From positions 62,001 to 126,000 of the forward strand of contig SHAP01000006.1 of assembly GCA_004213555.1 (NCBI GenBank): a DNA stretch of 64,000 nucleotides, written 5' to 3'. Shown piece after piece: positions 44,139 to 57,334 of this stretch. Numbering within the stretch: the first letter of the stretch is position 1; every line of letters starts with the position of its first letter. Under the pieces are notes generated by a model. That model saw only the letters and a program-made list of their open reading frames with translations, was not told the origin of the DNA and ran no database searches. The position numbers and the translations under genes were made by a program. This DNA is from Phycisphaeraceae bacterium (GTDB lineage Bacteria; Planctomycetota; Phycisphaerae; Phycisphaerales; SM1A02).

Positions 44139-45872
44139 ATGATTTTGAACCTGCTGTCGTTTCTCGTAACCACTTTTGCTGGTGGAACAGAACCAACTGG
44201 GACCTCTATTCAATCAGTCTTTGATCCATCACTTCCCATCACCATGCAAGCCACCTTGCAAGGTGAAGACGGCCGGACATGGACATTGGACTTGCATCGT
44301 CACTCGGTCCGAGCGGACAACTACCGAGTTCTCGAACAACAACGTGATGGCTCATTCATCGAAGTCGAACCCGGTCCAGTGAACACCTACAGGGGCATCT
44401 TGGCCGGACAGCCGAACACCAGGGTGGTTGCGGCGGTGGTTGGAGACCAACTCGTCGGAGGATTTGAAGACCACGACGGACGATGGTGGATAGAAGAAGA
44501 CGACTTCGGTGGACAAGTGCTCCGACACGAATCGGAAGTTGAACCATGCAAAGGAACTTGCGGAGTTGACGACCTTCCAATTTTTTCTGACGAAGAACTT
44601 CAAGACGGATTTGAAGAAACCCCCGACCTGCCTTCCGGATTTCTTGGTGGACTTCTCGATGAATGTGAACTGGCTTGTGATATGGATTACGAGTTCTACC
44701 AAGACTATGGCGGAAATTCCGAATCCAAAATCAACTCCGACATCAACAACGTGAACGGCTTCAACTACGAACCAGAGGTCAACGTCACACACTCCATCAC
44801 CACCATCATCGTCAGAAGCAATGCCAGTGACCCGTACACCACCACCAACGCCGGCGGCCTGCTTGACCAAGTTCGCAGCCACTGGCTTGGCAACCAACAA
44901 GGTGTTCAACGGGATTTGGTCCAAATGTTCAGTGGTCGAAATCTCGATGGCGGCACCATCGGCGTGGCCTACCTTGACGCCATCTGCAGCACAAACAATG
45001 GCTATGGGCTTTGCGAATCCGGGTTCAGCACCTCCTGCCAGACCGACTTGATCAGTCATGAGCTTGGCCACAATTGGGGCTGCAACCACATCAACGATGG
45101 CAACACCATGAATTCTTCTCTGACTTGCTCCAACAACTTCAGCACCAGCAGCAGAAACACCATTCAAAACACTGCCGCGACCAGCGGGTGCATTGGCTCC
45201 GCAGTCCCAGACGCAGGGGCCTGTTGTTTCACCACCGGATTCTGCACCAGCCTCGATGAGAGCGGTTGTGAGAACTCGGGCGGCTTCTTCTTCGGCTTGG
45301 GCGAAGCTTGTCCCGCCGATCAAGGAACTTGCGAAATTCCAGAACCTGAAGGCGCTTGTTGCTTCCCCAACGGAACTTGCTCGGTCGTTGAGATCTCCGA
45401 CTGTGCGAACGGGGGCGGGCAATTCCGCGGCGTAGACAGCAGCTGCTTCGGCGTGGACTGTTTGGCTGGAGCGTGCTGCTTTGGCGCTGACGCCTGCACC
45501 ACAGCCAATGAAGTGCAGTGCAATGCCGCGGGTGGCGCCTTCCAAGACGCCGGATCGGCCTGCGCGTCTGTGGACTGCACACCTCCAATTGGTGCTTGCT
45601 GCATCAATGGCGCCTGTGCACAACTCGAGCAAATCATTTGCTTGGCGGCGTCAGGGACGTTCAGCGGCATCGGGGTCGATTGCAGCAGTGTGTCCTGCGA
45701 ACAACCCTGCCCCGAAGACATCGACAACAGTGGCGCGGTTGACTTCAACGACATTTTGTCACTGCTTGCCGCGTGGGGACCTTGTGGCGCTTGCAGTGAA
45801 GACATCGACAACAACGGAACGGTGGACTTTGCCGACCTGCTTGGAGTCCTGGCGGCTTACGGTGACTGCTAA
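44139..45872 (+). CDS. Secreted metzincin metalloprotease with ACC repeats and dockerin-like motifs
   Basis: A 577-aa exported protease, ATG 44139 with GAGGA upstream. Signal peptide about 1-16. The zinc-binding motif H307-E-L-G-H-N-W-G-C-N-H fits HExxHxxGxxH of metzincins, and a Met-turn N-T-M-N-S follows soon after, closest to the reprolysin (M12B) type. The region before it (about 25-170) could be a propeptide. Residues 361-520 contain four Cys-rich repeats starting G-A-C-C with about six cysteines each, the same type as in the protein at 25652. The C-terminus (from about 524) has two dockerin-like motifs ending W-G-P-C and Y-G-D-C. It probably cleaves extracellular proteins. Confidence 0.85.
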   Translation: MILNLLSFLVTTFAGGTEPTGTSIQSVFDPSLPITMQATLQGEDGRTWTLDLHRHSVRADNYRVLEQQRDGSFIEVEPGPVNTYRGILAGQPNTRVVAAVVGDQLVGGFEDHDGRWWIEEDDFGGQVLRHESEVEPCKGTCGVDDLPIFSDEELQDGFEETPDLPSGFLGGLLDECELACDMDYEFYQDYGGNSESKINSDINNVNGFNYEPEVNVTHSITTIIVRSNASDPYTTTNAGGLLDQVRSHWLGNQQGVQRDLVQMFSGRNLDGGTIGVAYLDAICSTNNGYGLCESGFSTSCQTDLISHELGHNWGCNHINDGNTMNSSLTCSNNFSTSSRNTIQNTAATSGCIGSAVPDAGACCFTTGFCTSLDESGCENSGGFFFGLGEACPADQGTCEIPEPEGACCFPNGTCSVVEISDCANGGGQFRGVDSSCFGVDCLAGACCFGADACTTANEVQCNAAGGAFQDAGSACASVDCTPPIGACCINGACAQLEQIICLAASGTFSGIGVDCSSVSCEQPCPEDIDNSGAVDFNDILSLLAAWGPCGACSEDIDNNGTVDFADLLGVLAAYGDC

Positions 45873-45948: not shown

Positions 45949-47973
45949 ATGACCAGCCCCCTCTTCTGCGCATTTTTCCTTTTTGCCAATGCAGACGTGC
46001 CACCGCCCAACCACGCTGGGCCTTGGCAGTACTCGGATGGTCGTATCGTGGAAGACAACATCACCTATGAAGACTGGAACGCCTATTTCGCAGCTCGACC
46101 CGGTCGTCTTTGGCGGTGTGGGCTGGACACCACTTCCATCGAAGACGGCATCAATGGTTTCGGTGGATCGGGAGCCGACTGCTCATTGAGCTCGACCAAC
46201 CCGTCTCCGGTCTACGACCCCAGCGTGACTTTGTATCGAATCCCTTGCGTGGTGCATGTGCTCACCAATGGCAGCCAGGGAAATCTTTCCACCGACTGCG
46301 TGGAAAGCGGTATCCGCATTCTGAACGAAGATTTCCTCGCACTCCCTGGCACCAACGGTGCTCCGGGTACTGACGTGCAAATTGAATTCTTCTTGGCCGA
46401 AGTTGATCCCGATGGAAATCCAACCAATGGCATCACTTATTCCAACAACAGCACTTGGTTCAATGACGGGGGCAACTACTGGAACAGCTTGGCTTGGGAT
46501 CCTTCTCGATACATGAACATCTACTCCAACACCGCCGGTGGGAACCTGGGCTATGTGCCTGGATTCCCTCAGCAAGGCATCGCTGGTGACCAGAACGACC
46601 GAGTGGTGGTCCTCTGGTCATCTTGGGGCGATTGTTCGACCCAAGCACCGTACGACCTTGGCCGGACCTTGACCCATGAGGTTGGCCACTATCTTGGTTT
46701 GCTGCACACCTTCCAAGGCGGGTGTGGCTCGGCGTGCGCAACTTCTGGGGACCTGGTTTGCGACACCAATGCCGAAAGCGGGCCAAACTATGGCTGCGGC
46801 ACCCCTTCCTCTTGCGGGAGTTTGGATCCGGTCAACAATTACATGGACTACTCAGATGACGCGTGCATGAACCAGTTCACCCCAGATCAAGCCCGAAGAA
46901 TGCGCTGCACCCTCGAGTTCTACCGCACCGAACTTCCAGAAATTGGTCCCGGCGTGCCCTTGAATCTGACCCTGGACACCGCACCAACTTCAACCGTGGG
47001 GAGTTCAGGTCTGTCGGTCTCGCTGCAAATTGAAGAGACTGAACCCGGTGCACTTGATCCAAACTCCCCCGTGCTCGACTTCTCCATTGATGGTGTTCCC
47101 AACAGCGTGCCGTTGAGCTTCAATGTCACAAGCGATCGGTGGACCGGAAGCACCGGACCACTTCCCTGCACGTCCAGCCTTTCGTGGTCTGTCGCGGCCT
47201 CCGACGTCATGGGTGGCGAGCGACGGCTTGGTGCTTTTGATGCCACGGTGGTTGACAACGTAGATGTGCTCTTCCTCGACGGATTTGAGACCAATTCCGG
47301 ATGGACGGTCAGCGGAACCGCCACCGACGGGCAGTGGACCCGTGGCGCTCCGATCACCAATTGCGATCGCGGGAATCCCACTGAAACACCAGATGGCAGC
47401 CCCAGTGCCTTCCTGACCGACAATTCCAACAACGGCGGAGACTGCAACAGCGACGTCGATGGTGGCGAAACGGTGCTGACTTCTCCGACGTTGGACGCCA
47501 GCAATCCTGATGCCGTTCTGAGTTACTGGCGTTGGCACAACAATGCTGTCGGAGCCAGTCCCGGAGGCGACCCATTCACGGTTGAAATCTCAGCCGACGA
47601 TGGCAACTCGTGGGTCAACTTGGAAACCGTCGCGGGGAATTCCAGCGAGTCTTCGGGGGGGTGGGTTCGGAAGCAGTTCCAGGTCTCTGATTTTGTGAGC
47701 CCAACTGAGACTTGCCGAATTCGATTCATCTCCACCGATATTGGTGACGGTTCGGTGGTGGAATCGGCCGTGGACCGGGTCGAGATCACCGTGCAATCCT
47801 GCGAGACAGGTGAGCCCGCAGACTTTGATGGCGACGGAGATGTGGACTTTGAGGACCTCATCACTTTGCTCAGTTCATTCGGGCCCTGTGGCGTGCCTTG
47901 TCCTACCGACCTCGATGGCGACAATGCCGTGACGTTCGAGGATCTTCTTCGTCTGCTGAGCGTCTGGGGCTAA
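45949..47973 (+). CDS. Secreted M43-type zinc metalloprotease with jelly-roll domain and dockerin-like motifs
   Basis: A 674-aa exported protease. A short signal peptide runs to about residue 15. The catalytic motif H243-E-V-G-H-Y-L-G-L-L-H matches HExxHxxGxxH, and the Met-turn N-N-Y-M-D-Y-S-D-D-A-C (about 297) with Q-F-T-P-D-Q-A-R-R-M is diagnostic for the M43 (cytophagalysin/pappalysin) family. Residues 442-615 form a jelly-roll-like domain closely similar to that in the protein at 23355 (G-F-E-T-N-S-G-W-T-V, F-L-T-D-N, D-V-D-G-G-E-T-V-L-T-S-P). From about residue 620 there are two dockerin-like motifs; the last ends in S-V-W-G with no final cysteine. It lies 76 bp after the other metzincin gene. 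Confidence 0.88.
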   Translation: MTSPLFCAFFLFANADVPPPNHAGPWQYSDGRIVEDNITYEDWNAYFAARPGRLWRCGLDTTSIEDGINGFGGSGADCSLSSTNPSPVYDPSVTLYRIPCVVHVLTNGSQGNLSTDCVESGIRILNEDFLALPGTNGAPGTDVQIEFFLAEVDPDGNPTNGITYSNNSTWFNDGGNYWNSLAWDPSRYMNIYSNTAGGNLGYVPGFPQQGIAGDQNDRVVVLWSSWGDCSTQAPYDLGRTLTHEVGHYLGLLHTFQGGCGSACATSGDLVCDTNAESGPNYGCGTPSSCGSLDPVNNYMDYSDDACMNQFTPDQARRMRCTLEFYRTELPEIGPGVPLNLTLDTAPTSTVGSSGLSVSLQIEETEPGALDPNSPVLDFSIDGVPNSVPLSFNVTSDRWTGSTGPLPCTSSLSWSVAASDVMGGERRLGAFDATVVDNVDVLFLDGFETNSGWTVSGTATDGQWTRGAPITNCDRGNPTETPDGSPSAFLTDNSNNGGDCNSDVDGGETVLTSPTLDASNPDAVLSYWRWHNNAVGASPGGDPFTVEISADDGNSWVNLETVAGNSSESSGGWVRKQFQVSDFVSPTETCRIRFISTDIGDGSVVESAVDRVEITVQSCETGEPADFDGDGDVDFEDLITLLSSFGPCGVPCPTDLDGDNAVTFEDLLRLLSVWG

Positions 47974-47985
47974 ACCCGAAGACAT

Positions 47986-48858
47986 TCAGTGCTGTTCCGG
48001 CGGCGAAGCCATAGCCTCGTCGCTTTCGGAGCGGTCACGATCAATGTCCTCTGCCACCGTGCGGTAGATGCTTTCCAACAAACCAACCATGGGAAATTTC
48101 CCTTTCAATGGTGGCTTGCCCAAACGCATCAACAAAGCAAGCGGAGGAAAGGGGCCCATCGCCTCAGGCTGCGATGAACTGCGACCGCGCCAAAAGTTTC
48201 GTTCTGGATCGGGACCCGCGGTGGTCGGACGGGGATCTCGGTGCGCCGTAAGTGCACCCCGAAGACGCACCGCGCGTGCATCACGAAGCAAGACCGCCAG
48301 ATCGTCCATCGGAAGTCCGACCGCCACCAACAATGGTTTGAGGTCTTGCTCGAGCAACTGAGCAGCTGCCGCCGCAGCGCAGACCACCCTGTGTTCAAAA
48401 CCAATCGGTTTCGCATCCAACTCTGCCGACAAATCCGCGCCCGTTGGTACGAGACGACCGCCGAGTTCCCGAATCAAACCCACCAAGTTGCTCGGAATCC
48501 CACCTTCCTCAATGCGAACCAAATTGCGTGGATCCTCACTGAGACGTTCGACGACCATTTCTCGAACTGTTTCGGAGAGCACTGGAACCAAAAGGTCAAC
48601 CTCATGGGGTTGGCGGCGAATGCCTTGCACTTTCATCCGAATGCGGCCTGGCAAACCGAGAATGCTCATGGCTTGGCCCAAAGTTCCCCAACGAAGGCCT
48701 TCGGCTTTGGATTCCTTAGAAGAACGCTCCAAAACAGAAAGCCACAGGCGAGATGCCGGTGAATCGCCGGTGCAATCGGGCCCCTCTTCACCAATGAGGA
48801 TGCCTTTTTTGACCCGGCGGGGTTCGGTCCGCTCGTGTTGATACTGGGGTTCTGTCAT
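47986..48858 (-). CDS. SWIM-family-like companion of the SNF2 helicase, zinc ligands missing
   Basis: A 290-aa protein overlapping the helicase stop by four bases (ATGA). SNF2 helicases of this type usually sit beside a SWIM zinc-finger protein (compare ywqA-ywqB of Bacillus subtilis). Parts of that family's plan are visible: L-P-G-R-I-R-M-K-V-Q-G-I-R-R-Q-P-H-E-V-D (family: pG-x-I-x-A-x-V-Q-G-S-r-x-x-P-Y-x-V), then G-G-I-P-S-N-L and G-G-R-L-V-P, which precede the zinc finger. Where the C-x-C...C-x-H finger is expected, the sequence reads A-E-L-D-A-K-P-I-G-F-E-H; only the His is kept. The homology is my alignment by eye; an unrelated protein remains possible. Confidence 0.55.
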   Translation of the reverse strand: MTEPQYQHERTEPRRVKKGILIGEEGPDCTGDSPASRLWLSVLERSSKESKAEGLRWGTLGQAMSILGLPGRIRMKVQGIRRQPHEVDLLVPVLSETVREMVVERLSEDPRNLVRIEEGGIPSNLVGLIRELGGRLVPTGADLSAELDAKPIGFEHRVVCAAAAAAQLLEQDLKPLLVAVGLPMDDLAVLLRDARAVRLRGALTAHRDPRPTTAGPDPERNFWRGRSSSQPEAMGPFPPLALLMRLGKPPLKGKFPMVGLLESIYRTVAEDIDRDRSESDEAMASPPEQH

Positions 48859-51800
48859 TCGTCATCCCCAAAATCACCGCCCCGGAAGGTCAACAAGCTG
48901 CGAAGTTCATCGGTGTCCAATTCGGTGAGCCAACTTTCCCCGGAACCAACAATGTTCTTGGCCAACTCGACTTTGGATTCAATCATGCGATCAATGCGTT
49001 CTTCAAGCGTGCCAGAGCAGACAAATTTGTGCACCTGCACGGCACGGGTTTGGCCAATTCGGAAGGCACGATCTGTGGCCTGATTTTCCACCGCTGGATT
49101 CCACCAGCGATCAAAATGGAAGACATGGTTTGCCGCGGTGAGATTCAGTCCAACCCCACCGGCCTTCAATGACAGCACGAAGACCGGAATGTCATTGCCC
49201 GCATCTTGGAAACGATCGACCATTTCCTGACGCTTGGCGGTGGGGGTTCCTCCGTGAAGGAAGAGGATTTCCCGGTCCAATGTCCGCCGCAACATCGAAA
49301 CCAACAGATGCCCCATCCGACGAAACTGTGTAAAGACCAAAGCCTTGGAACCTGAAGCTTGGACCTCTTCGAGCATCTCACAAAGGCGACGGCATTTCCC
49401 AGACCGGTTGCGGATGGCTTCTGGATCAATCCCAATTTCAGAGGAATCAGCATCACCTTCGACCAAACCTGGGTGGTTGCAAATTTGCTTGAGGCGAACC
49501 AGCATGGCGAGAACCAGTCCACGCCGACGCATGCCCTCCGCCTCACCAAGTTCACCCATCATTCCCGAAACAGCTTGCTCGTACAAAGTGGCCTGTTCAG
49601 GAGTCAGAGTGGCGTGTTCAATGGTTGTGGTGCAAGGTGGCAAATCATCAATCACCGAACGATCTGTTTTTACGCGACGCAACACGAACGGGCGAACCAT
49701 TTGTCGCAACCTCTCGGCCCGGTCTCCGTCTCGATGGCGCTCAATGGGCACCGCGAAGCGGCGACGGAATTCTCCAGATGAACCCAAATATCCAGGGTTC
49801 AAGAACTCCATGATGGACCAAAGTTCGGACAGCCTGTTCTCCACCGGCGTTCCGGTGAGAGCAATGCGACGTCGGGCCGGAAGCGCGCGAATGGTTGCGG
49901 CCTGCTTGGTTGGAGGGTTCTTGATGTATTGGGCCTCATCAAGAACAACTCGGTGCCATTCGCTGCGTTCAAGATCCTCTTTATCCCGACCAACCAAAGA
50001 ATACGTTGTCACCACAATGTCGCTGGACTCGACCATACGGTCGAACGCGTCACCACTTGTTCGCTCCAAGCCATGATGAATCGATACCCGCAACTCGGGG
50101 GCGAATCGCTCTGCTTCACGCTTCCAGTTGGAAACGACTGACGTCGGCACGACCAACAACGTTGGGCCAGGTTGAGCGCCACCTTTGCGTTCGTGCAAGA
50201 GGAGCGCCAGTAACTGGACGGTCTTGCCGAGTCCCATGTCATCGGCGAGACAGCTGCCGAGACCAAATCGATCCAAGAACGCCAGCCAAGACAAACCACG
50301 TTGCTGGTAGGGACGGAGTTCACCCTGAAGTGAATCAGGTTGATCGACCTGGGTGTAATTGGCGGCACCGGAATCCAAGAGTTCAGAAACCCAGCCCGAA
50401 GCCTCAATGCCCGTAAGAGGGATACCCCCCTCTTCCCCTTCCCAAGCCATACGCATGGCTTCAAGGATGGTCCCTTGTCCTTCCCGAGCAGCAGCCAGTC
50501 GGGCGGCGGCGTCAGCCAACACCTCGGGATCAAGTTCTACCCATTGGTCATGAACCCGCCGCAAAACGGGACCACGTCTTGCTTCGGCCACCAAGGCTTG
50601 GAACTCATCAAACGAAAGGATTTGATCACCAACGGAAATTTCCCATTTGAAATCAACCAACGCATCCAAACCAAGGACACTCGCGCCCGCATCAAGATCA
50701 GAGGTGCTGCCGCTTTCTGATTCACTTGGTGCCAAGCTCAAACGAAGACCGATGCCACGGTCACGGGTGTTCCACCATTCGGGCAATTCAACCACAATGC
50801 CCGCTTCACGCAAGAGCGGAACCCCGGCAGTCAAAAGCCGGTGGGCAGCAATGGTGTCCAACACAAGTTCTGCCGGTTTGGCATCTTCCAACGCCGGCTC
50901 AAGTTCCCGGCATGCTCGCGCAGCGCGTCCCAACTCGGCCAAAAGCAACTCGTCGGGCGCTCGGCGGACCATCCCCAAACGAAGTCCGGCCTCTGGATCG
51001 TTGTGAATTTCATCGGCTTCCAGGCGCTCGCCGTCTTCACCTAGACCTTGCAAGAAAAACTGAACCGTCCAACGCGCTGTCTTCGCGTCGGCATCTTTAG
51101 GCGGCTCTATGAGGCGAAGTCCGAGGCGAATTCCCGCGCCATCTTCAGGATCGGAAAGGGTGCCCAACCATTCACTCGCCCCACGGAAAAGCGTGGAAGC
51201 AGCATCACCATCAGAAGTCACCGAGGTCCCCAAGTCCAGCAAACCCGACAACCATGCCACGGATGGATCTTCAGAACTTTGACCTTCAAGGCTGTCGACG
51301 TAGTCTTCGGCACGCAATACTCGGCGTACTCGAGCATCGATCAACTCAACCAGCACCTCGACCAAAATGTCCCACGCGCTTTGTCCAGCCACCGATTCAT
51401 CGGCCAAGATCACCGCAGGCATCGCGCTCAGCAACCTTTCAGCTTCCCCTCGCACCGTGGGATCGTGCAGCCATGGCGACCAGCGGGCCGTAAGCGAACG
51501 GTCCCGGCGACGAACCAAAGTGGGAACATAACGATGACGAAGCATCAGTTCGGCGGCAAAATCAGCAACATCCAGCCACCAGCGAACATCATGGGCCAGA
51601 CGGAAAGCAGATGAATGTTCGAGTCGGCCCAGATGCCCCAAGTGATCGGCCTTGACACCAACCGCCGGGGTTTCACACACCGAACCATCAAATTCACCAT
51701 TGTCTTCAAGGACAACTCCCGAGACGTCTTGCATGCGATCACTGGCGGTGTGTTGGCCTGAGATTTTGGGCAATTCAAGCTGAAGAACGGTGGTTCCGCT

Positions 51801-51968
51801 CAAAGAGTCCTCGGGGAAGCCAGCAGCAATCAATGCTGCTTGCAAATCCTCGGCTTTTGCGAAATCTTCGACAGAAGATTCTGCCCACACATGGATGCTG
51901 CCGGCGGACCAACATGCATGCAGAACCAGTGGATTTGAAGCCGTTGAATCAACCAAGCTGTCCTCCAT
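48855..51968 (-). CDS. SNF2/RapA-type DEAD-like helicase
   Basis: A 1037-aa ATPase. The N-terminal 450 residues correspond to the region found in bacterial SNF2 proteins with a DUF3670-type domain. The SNF2 motor follows: motif I D-D-M-G-L-G-K-T at about 575, motif II D-E-A-Q at about 676, motif III L-T-G-T-P-V-E-N, and C-terminal motifs V-F-T-Q-F, L-K-A-G-G-V-G-L-N-L and D-R-A-F-R-I-G-Q. It likely remodels protein-nucleic acid complexes such as RNA polymerase or repair complexes. ATG 51968 has no obvious ribosome binding site and lies 10 nt after tRNA-Lys, so the tRNA transcript may run into it. Confidence 0.93.
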   Translation of the reverse strand: MEDSLVDSTASNPLVLHACWSAGSIHVWAESSVEDFAKAEDLQAALIAAGFPEDSLSGTTVLQLELPKISGQHTASDRMQDVSGVVLEDNGEFDGSVCETPAVGVKADHLGHLGRLEHSSAFRLAHDVRWWLDVADFAAELMLRHRYVPTLVRRRDRSLTARWSPWLHDPTVRGEAERLLSAMPAVILADESVAGQSAWDILVEVLVELIDARVRRVLRAEDYVDSLEGQSSEDPSVAWLSGLLDLGTSVTSDGDAASTLFRGASEWLGTLSDPEDGAGIRLGLRLIEPPKDADAKTARWTVQFFLQGLGEDGERLEADEIHNDPEAGLRLGMVRRAPDELLLAELGRAARACRELEPALEDAKPAELVLDTIAAHRLLTAGVPLLREAGIVVELPEWWNTRDRGIGLRLSLAPSESESGSTSDLDAGASVLGLDALVDFKWEISVGDQILSFDEFQALVAEARRGPVLRRVHDQWVELDPEVLADAAARLAAAREGQGTILEAMRMAWEGEEGGIPLTGIEASGWVSELLDSGAANYTQVDQPDSLQGELRPYQQRGLSWLAFLDRFGLGSCLADDMGLGKTVQLLALLLHERKGGAQPGPTLLVVPTSVVSNWKREAERFAPELRVSIHHGLERTSGDAFDRMVESSDIVVTTYSLVGRDKEDLERSEWHRVVLDEAQYIKNPPTKQAATIRALPARRRIALTGTPVENRLSELWSIMEFLNPGYLGSSGEFRRRFAVPIERHRDGDRAERLRQMVRPFVLRRVKTDRSVIDDLPPCTTTIEHATLTPEQATLYEQAVSGMMGELGEAEGMRRRGLVLAMLVRLKQICNHPGLVEGDADSSEIGIDPEAIRNRSGKCRRLCEMLEEVQASGSKALVFTQFRRMGHLLVSMLRRTLDREILFLHGGTPTAKRQEMVDRFQDAGNDIPVFVLSLKAGGVGLNLTAANHVFHFDRWWNPAVENQATDRAFRIGQTRAVQVHKFVCSGTLEERIDRMIESKVELAKNIVGSGESWLTELDTDELRSLLTFRGGDFGDDE

Positions 51969-55980: not shown

Positions 55981-56976
55981 CTACTTCTTGGTTGACTTCT
56001 TGGCGGTTTTCTTTGCAATCTTTTTTGCTGACTTCTTGGCCGATTTCTTGGCGGATTTCTTGGCGGGTGACTTCTTGGCCACCGCTTTCTTCGCAGCAGA
56101 TTTCTTTGTGGTGGCCTTCTTGGCCGCCGCTTTTTTGACGGGGGATTTCGTTGCCGGAGCTTTTTTGGCTGCTGTTTTTTTGGTTGCAGCTTTCTTGGTG
56201 GCGGCTTTCTTGGTTGCGGCCTTTTTGGCGGCCGATTTTTTCTCCTCGGACTTCTTGGCCGCCGCCTTGGCGGTCACTTTTTTCTTGCTCGAACTGGCTT
56301 TCACCTTCTTGGGAGTTGGTTCCTCGGCGACCGTCCCCGGCAAATCCACCACTGGGGTGGCCCGCTCTTTTTCGGACAACATTTGCAAGGCCAAGTGAGT
56401 ATCGAGTCCTTGGGCGGCCGTCACCAAGCGAGACATGGTTTGGGATGCTGATTCAATGGTGGCATCAGGATCGACAACTCCCGATTTCACCAACAAACGC
56501 AAAGTACGCTCGTCAACAGGAACCGCATGGGAACTCGCGGCGATCAATGCGGTTCGGGCCGCCACAAAAGGGGTCATGCCCTCCAAAGAATCGAGATACT
56601 CCCGAAATTCCTTTTTCGGGCCGCCAGCAGGACCGGAAAGATCAGTGCTGTGCTCACGGTGAAACACACCTCGGAGCGTGGCCCGCAATCTGTCGGCACG
56701 CTCTTCAGCACGGGGGCAGCCACCACCAAAATATTCCAAGTAATCATCGACCACCGTCACACGAAGTTCGTTCAGATCCGTGACATCCTCCACCATTCGA
56801 GCCCACGTCGAACTCGCACGGGCACCGTTCCACTCCCAAACCAGAAAGGACTGGATCAAAACTTGAGTGGCATCGCTCACACCTGGAAATGGATTTTCAG
56901 CATTTTTCGCTTTGCCCAAAAGACGCTTCAGCGCTTTACCTGCTTCAGTTGCCGAGATTTTCTTCGTCTTGGCCAT
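55981..56976 (-). CDS. Degenerate HhH-GPD/endonuclease III-like protein with histone H1-like lysine-rich tail
   Basis: A 331-aa protein. ATG 56976 is set by AAGGAGG 8 nt upstream. Residues 1-220 are helical. The segment L-E-G-M-T-P-F-V-A-A-R-T-A and then A-V-P-V-D-E-R-T-L-R-L-L lines up with the HhH and catalytic-Asp region of endonuclease III (L-P-G-V-G-R-K-T-A, V-D-T-H-V-x-R). The Asp is kept; the catalytic Lys is not, and no Fe-S cysteine cluster is present. Residues 225-331 are K/A/T-rich with repeats of A-A-K-K, A-T-K-K and S-A-K-K, like histone H1 tails. It may be a nucleoid protein without glycosylase activity. It overlaps rbfA by 32 bp. Confidence 0.65.
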   Translation of the reverse strand: MAKTKKISATEAGKALKRLLGKAKNAENPFPGVSDATQVLIQSFLVWEWNGARASSTWARMVEDVTDLNELRVTVVDDYLEYFGGGCPRAEERADRLRATLRGVFHREHSTDLSGPAGGPKKEFREYLDSLEGMTPFVAARTALIAASSHAVPVDERTLRLLVKSGVVDPDATIESASQTMSRLVTAAQGLDTHLALQMLSEKERATPVVDLPGTVAEEPTPKKVKASSSKKKVTAKAAAKKSEEKKSAAKKAATKKAATKKAATKKTAAKKAPATKSPVKKAAAKKATTKKSAAKKAVAKKSPAKKSAKKSAKKSAKKIAKKTAKKSTKK

Positions 56977-57334
56977 GCTGTCGGCCTCCTTCATGGGGAT
57001 CGTTGATGGGATCAAGTCGCCGAGTCACTTCGGCCGCAGCCGCCGCACCGGCATCTTTCTTAAACCAGAGTCTTGGGGTTCGTCGCAGATTCGCGCGGCG
57101 GGCCAATTCCCGCCGCAAATGGGGCGTTGCACTCTTTAAACCATGCAGGACCAATTCCAGATTCTCGGAGGGATACGCACTGACAAATGCCGTTGCATCC
57201 GCCATGTCGGGAGCCAACTTCACGTGACCAACGGAAACGATGCCTCGGACACGTGGATCCGCAATGCCTTTGCGCAATGACTCTTGCAAAGTTCGGCGAA
57301 TCACTTCTTCGAGTTGCTCGTGACGACGGGTCAT
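56945..57334 (-). CDS. rbfA: Ribosome-binding factor A
   Basis: A 129-aa KH-fold protein needed for 16S rRNA 5'-end maturation and 30S assembly. Typical features are R-R-H-E-Q-L-E-E-V-I-R-R near the N-terminus, the D-P-R-V-R-G-I-V-S-V loop, and the final L-W-F-K-K-D. It lies 18 bp after infB, the usual order, and overlaps the following HhH-like gene by 32 bp. There is no clear ribosome binding site, so translation probably depends on coupling to infB. Confidence 0.93.
   Translation of the reverse strand: MTRRHEQLEEVIRRTLQESLRKGIADPRVRGIVSVGHVKLAPDMADATAFVSAYPSENLELVLHGLKSATPHLRRELARRANLRRTPRLWFKKDAGAAAAAEVTRRLDPINDPHEGGRQHGQDEENLGN

Follow-up and report, generated by a model that had tools for sequence, protein, structure and literature searches.

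SWIM domains are defined by a zinc site, and the title of Godin et al. 2015 reportedly calls the SWIM domain of Shu2/SWS1 invariant. HelZ/Rv2101 presumably falls into the same group as the SNF2–SWIM pairs of the SCO1167/SCO6262 type, and the role of such pairs in bacteria is little known. HelZ/Rv2101 is listed as a Snf2/Rad54-family helicase with a zinc finger (table in the radiation-resistance section, PMC2587704), and Shu2 and SWS1 are the SWIM proteins of the eukaryotic Shu complex (PMC6821187). HelZ and the Shu-complex proteins point, by analogy only, to DNA repair or recombination as the field of action. A literature search, with many journals outside its coverage, gave no account of bacterial SNF2–SWIM pairs or of ligand loss in a SWIM domain. 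Here, we describe an SNF2 helicase of a Phycisphaeraceae bacterium whose SWIM-type partner lacks all four zinc ligands.

The locus lies on the minus strand of the window, that is, of the whole 64,000-nucleotide stretch of DNA analyzed, and all its features are given below on that strand. A 1037-aa SNF2-family helicase with a DUF3670 domain (48855..51968; ORF and Pfam) is followed directly by the gene for a 290-aa zinc-less SWIM-like partner protein (47986..48858; ORF, SWIM-protein homology, and dN/dS). As claimed in an initial annotation of this DNA, the two genes overlap by ATGA, the ORF coordinates placing the helicase stop and the partner start within the same 4 bases (48855..48858). This overlap fits translational coupling, and both proteins are probably produced from one transcript. 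The helicase matched the Pfam models SNF2-rel_dom (6.7e-71), DUF3670 (4.9e-31), and Helicase_C (9.5e-22), with DUF3670 located at residues 364–508 (50445..50879) and the SNF2 ATPase core plus Helicase_C at residues 554–972 (49053..50309). The helicase adjacent to the partner is intact and has ATPase motifs I and II. When it was compared with all NCBIfam models, the SCO1167/SCO6262 family helicase (NF058637) came out on top with 699 bits, which does not reach the curated cut-off of 1200 bits. With the helicase and the partner in this order and orientation, the locus has the arrangement of an SNF2–SWIM operon pair, the partner being counted as SWIM-type through descent and not through ligands. 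Elsewhere in the window, a 344-aa ORF (55981–57015, minus strand) carries a long Lys/Ala repeat tail in the manner of bacterial DNA-binding proteins of the histone H1 type. The plus strand has two metalloprotease-like ORFs that look secreted (44139–45872 and 45949–47973); they contain motifs of the HExxH type, and their C-terminal acidic repeats resemble dockerin-like calcium sites.

The 290-aa protein gave no family match in Pfam, NCBIfam, or PADLOC, and the Pfam scan gave no match to the SWIM profile PF04434 above its cut-off. Several of the intact orthologs match PF04434, and two of those scanned exceed the cut-off of 19.6 bits (20.9 and 25.2). Both family blocks that had been proposed to flank the finger were located by ortholog comparison, namely VQGIRRQPHEV at residues 77–87 (48598..48630; family form VQGRxxxPYxV) and GGRLVP at residues 133–138, directly before the finger (48445..48462). 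The same comparison placed a C-terminal family signature, ALLMRLGKPPLKGKFPMVGLLESIY, at 48064..48138, for which the family form is HALLRRLGPSPLxGKFPLVGLLASIY. The orthologs exhibit V-Q-G-R-x-x-x-P-Y, L-x-P, and then C-x-C...C-x-H at the exact place of the window finger. For a test of descent, a profile was made from the 120 finger-bearing orthologs alone, the ligand-less members being left out because circularity was to be avoided. This intact-only profile matched the window protein with E = 1.4e-48 over residues 5–286, gap-free through the finger, while all of 200 shuffles of the window protein gave E > 1. The similarity to SWIM proteins is strong outside the finger as well. As judged from these alignments, the partner gene shares common descent with zinc-bearing SWIM proteins and is orthologous to them over its full length; its identification as the SWIM partner of the helicase is borne out by both position and homology.

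A single-sequence search retrieved orthologs from 47 of 61 genomes, and a profile search retrieved them from 250 of 301 genomes of the order. Because it is that widespread, the gene looks vertically inherited; no plasmid relatives were found. In two families of the order, f5 and f6, the genomes without the partner are also without this helicase type or yield an ATPase-core match only. A role in anti-phage defence was considered and rejected on the same occurrence across the order and on the lack of a PADLOC-DB match for the partner; the helicase matches the PADLOC models ZorD and DpdE only across the shared SNF2 core.

The lost ligands are located in a degenerate finger at residues 144–171 (48346..48429), within which residues 145–157 read AELDAKPIGFEHR. 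The profile line "dvkveCtCgekqpCKHvaava" is aligned here with "DLSAELDAKPIGFEHRVVCAA" of the window protein. According to the ortholog and profile alignments, the columns of the first, second, and third ligand Cys are occupied by L147 (48418..48420), A149 (48412..48414; Glu in both sister genomes), and E155 (48394..48396), and the column of the ligand His by R157 (48388..48390). The initial annotation was hence correct that C-x-C...C-x-H is missing, but the His that it took as retained, H156, stands in the K column of C-K-H and not in the ligand column, so that the count of lost ligands rises from three to four. The window protein contains in total two Cys (29 and 160) and five His (8, 85, 156, 206, and 290), which makes a CCCH site at the finger impossible. 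Residues 147 and 149 differ within the window genus (L/M and A/E), and E155 and R157 are constant.

Structure prediction had been proposed as a check on this finger. AlphaFold2 gave a mean pLDDT of 80 for the window protein and of 91–94 for the finger block, in which strands at 144–147 and 150–152 form a hairpin that is followed by a helix at 156–171, the two strands and then helix of a SWIM domain. Much the same element order was predicted for a zinc-bearing ortholog, for which DSSP calls no second finger strand. Since the input alignment (52 sequences) included zinc-bearing homologs, the retained fold is in part an inheritance from them, and the prediction is to be taken as compatibility with a retained finger fold rather than as proof. 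Searched against the PDB with the partner, sequence comparison gave weak matches to engineered or helical proteins only, and fold comparison gave nothing at E ≤ 0.001, with a best Z of 4.0 for AcrIF13.

The initial annotation had asked whether other orthologs of the Phycisphaerae also lack the cysteines. Of 147 distinct orthologs, 120 carry the complete motif, whereas the remaining 27 are ligand-less. On a helicase tree, which was built without any partner sequence, the ligand label needs 5 changes, all of them forced by supported branches. A partner tree from which the finger columns were omitted needs 6, and supported branches force at least 4 of these; in this tree, the placement of the window genus is unsure owing to its long branch. 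The ligand-less proteins fall into five groups: the window genus with G022; a large clade, possibly including G033; G046 with G050 (L029 and L030); G016 with G223; and L099, whose neighbor L100 is intact. The third group is intermediate, as the His and one Cys of C-x-C remain. The other two ligands are gone in both L029 and L030, and the loop is larger in L030. Change counting does not separate gain from loss, and loss is the natural direction because the motif is common to the wider SWIM family. The ligands thus appear to have been lost independently about five times in the order, a count to be read with a margin because each of the two trees has some joins with long branches. At the ligand-less loci, the neighboring gene in the same orientation is still the helicase, and its motifs I and II were seen in every case in which the examined stretch contains the entire helicase frame. 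The initial annotation was right about the gene, its partnership, and the loss, and its finding is widened here to a loss that is recurrent across an order. It also follows that SWIM partners in a considerable portion of these pairs escape a profile search, given that 27 of the 147 orthologs are without the motif.

That the loss is a sequencing error, or that the gene is a pseudogene or wrongly identified, is hardly conceivable. Two further genomes of the genus (L003 and L004) carry the same loss, which argues against an error, and the homology to the intact-only profile extends over the full length. Among the three genomes, dN/dS was 0.025–0.044 for the partner and 0.024–0.037 for the helicase, ratios that are rough because dS is near saturation and that are clearly far below 1. 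By this measure, purifying selection maintains the partner, and the helicase next to it is intact. It might also be supposed that a separate intact SWIM protein, encoded elsewhere in the genome, serves this helicase. One intact SWIM domain does exist there, as a second SNF2 protein (L001:1471–3009, contig C1 of G000) bears a finger of the form CTC...CRH at its own C-terminus. Yet this sole other SWIM match is a domain of a different SNF2 protein; no free-standing SWIM gene was found, and the local partner is still conserved. With the genome about 91% complete a SWIM gene may have been missed, and we regard such a substitute as very improbable.

A more serious competitor is that the finger is a vestige, the SWIM motif being dispensable in this subfamily and decaying neutrally as the rest of the protein carries the function. 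Recurrent loss is expected of a dispensable site, the substitutes for Cys are not the same in different clades, and positions 147 and 149, two of the four that once held ligands, are variable in the window genus, as noted above. On the other side, all four ligands occur in 120 of the 120 intact orthologs over large divergence (a set itself chosen by the motif), Arg fills the His column in every member of the 17-member ligand-less clade as well as in the window genus, and the finger helix and hairpin are predicted with high confidence. We consider neutral decay possible but doubtful. An economy of zinc, by which zinc-poor open-ocean lineages drop zinc sites where these are dispensable, is compatible with the explanation favored below and was assessed on zinc proteins sampled by family search. 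Ribosomal proteins provide a known case of such replacement (PMC3087516). Of 29 genomes, only those of the window genus have an L32 that lacks two of its four Cys, and L31, L36, and S14 occur as zinc-less forms across the sampled family. The L32 sequences of the window genus, L337 (G000:C2:38618–38758) and L336 (G001), read CPVTG...CTSSG, and the 27 other genomes of the family keep four Cys; the L31, L36, and S14 loci sampled were L257–L312 and L342–L370, among which L36 of G033 was misread. The names of ligand-less records (NAT18, MED835, SP137, SP202, and ALOHA_ZT_39) resemble those of marine plankton or open-ocean genomes, a reading of habitat from record names only and hence a lead, not a result. 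Against this, SP110 and CPC83 are apparently marine and intact, the zinc-less forms of L31, L36, and S14 also occur in SWIM-intact genera, and L32 has four Cys in the other ligand-less genera. Moreover, the zinc fingers of DnaJ and ClpX are intact in the window genus and another SWIM domain of the same genome keeps its ligands, so zinc economy is not a general explanation. A zinc-saving trend in the window genus is possible and would leave the other losses unexplained; as a driver of the loss we rate it as rather unlikely.

We therefore favor, with some reserve, the reading that the partner is a ligand-less SWIM descendant and that the SNF2–SWIM pair has a metal-free finger as a structural or contact module. 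Judging from its evolution, the pair seems to tolerate such a finger and to work without zinc. The partner would be a regular small companion of a DUF3670-type SNF2 DNA translocase, in which the finger hairpin and helix are predicted to fold still within a larger beta/alpha domain. The essential work, binding of the helicase or of its DNA substrate, may fall to the larger domain at the N-terminus together with the conserved C-terminal signature. The finger itself could be stabilized by packing and by charged side chains in place of zinc, and the partner as a whole could act as an adaptor of the ATP-driven translocase. The pair is most likely such a translocase with its adaptor in DNA repair or recombination, an assignment for which the SNF2 family is the sole basis. 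A further, tentative reading, to which we give less credence, is that the zinc finger was converted several times independently to a metal-free form that took on a defined new role, of which the Arg found in the former His column of more than one lineage would be the mark. If this is true, the order holds a natural series leading from a zinc-dependent to a zinc-independent partner of a DNA motor. About five independent natural losses in which the helicase is kept offer a way to test whether the partnership requires zinc or whether only local folding does.

Compared with the SWIM zinc finger of PF04434, the window protein shares the position, the gap-free alignment with SWIM-bearing orthologs, and the predicted hairpin and helix, but it differs in lacking all four ligands and any Pfam match. 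It likewise resembles the SCO1167/SCO6262-type pairs (NF058637) in that the gene of a DUF3670-bearing SNF2 helicase is followed immediately by a small gene of SWIM type, whereas its helicase scores well below the cut-off of that family and its partner has no zinc ligands. With the zinc-less (C-) forms of bacterial ribosomal proteins (PMC3087516), it has in common that a zinc site was replaced repeatedly while the remainder of the protein stayed conserved; here, however, the protein is a helicase partner, and a second, zinc-bearing copy was not found in the genome. Shu2/SWS1 is also a protein of SWIM type that is accessory to a DNA recombination ATPase, a likeness drawn by analogy only, but its SWIM domain is the one termed invariant, in contrast to the finger described here.
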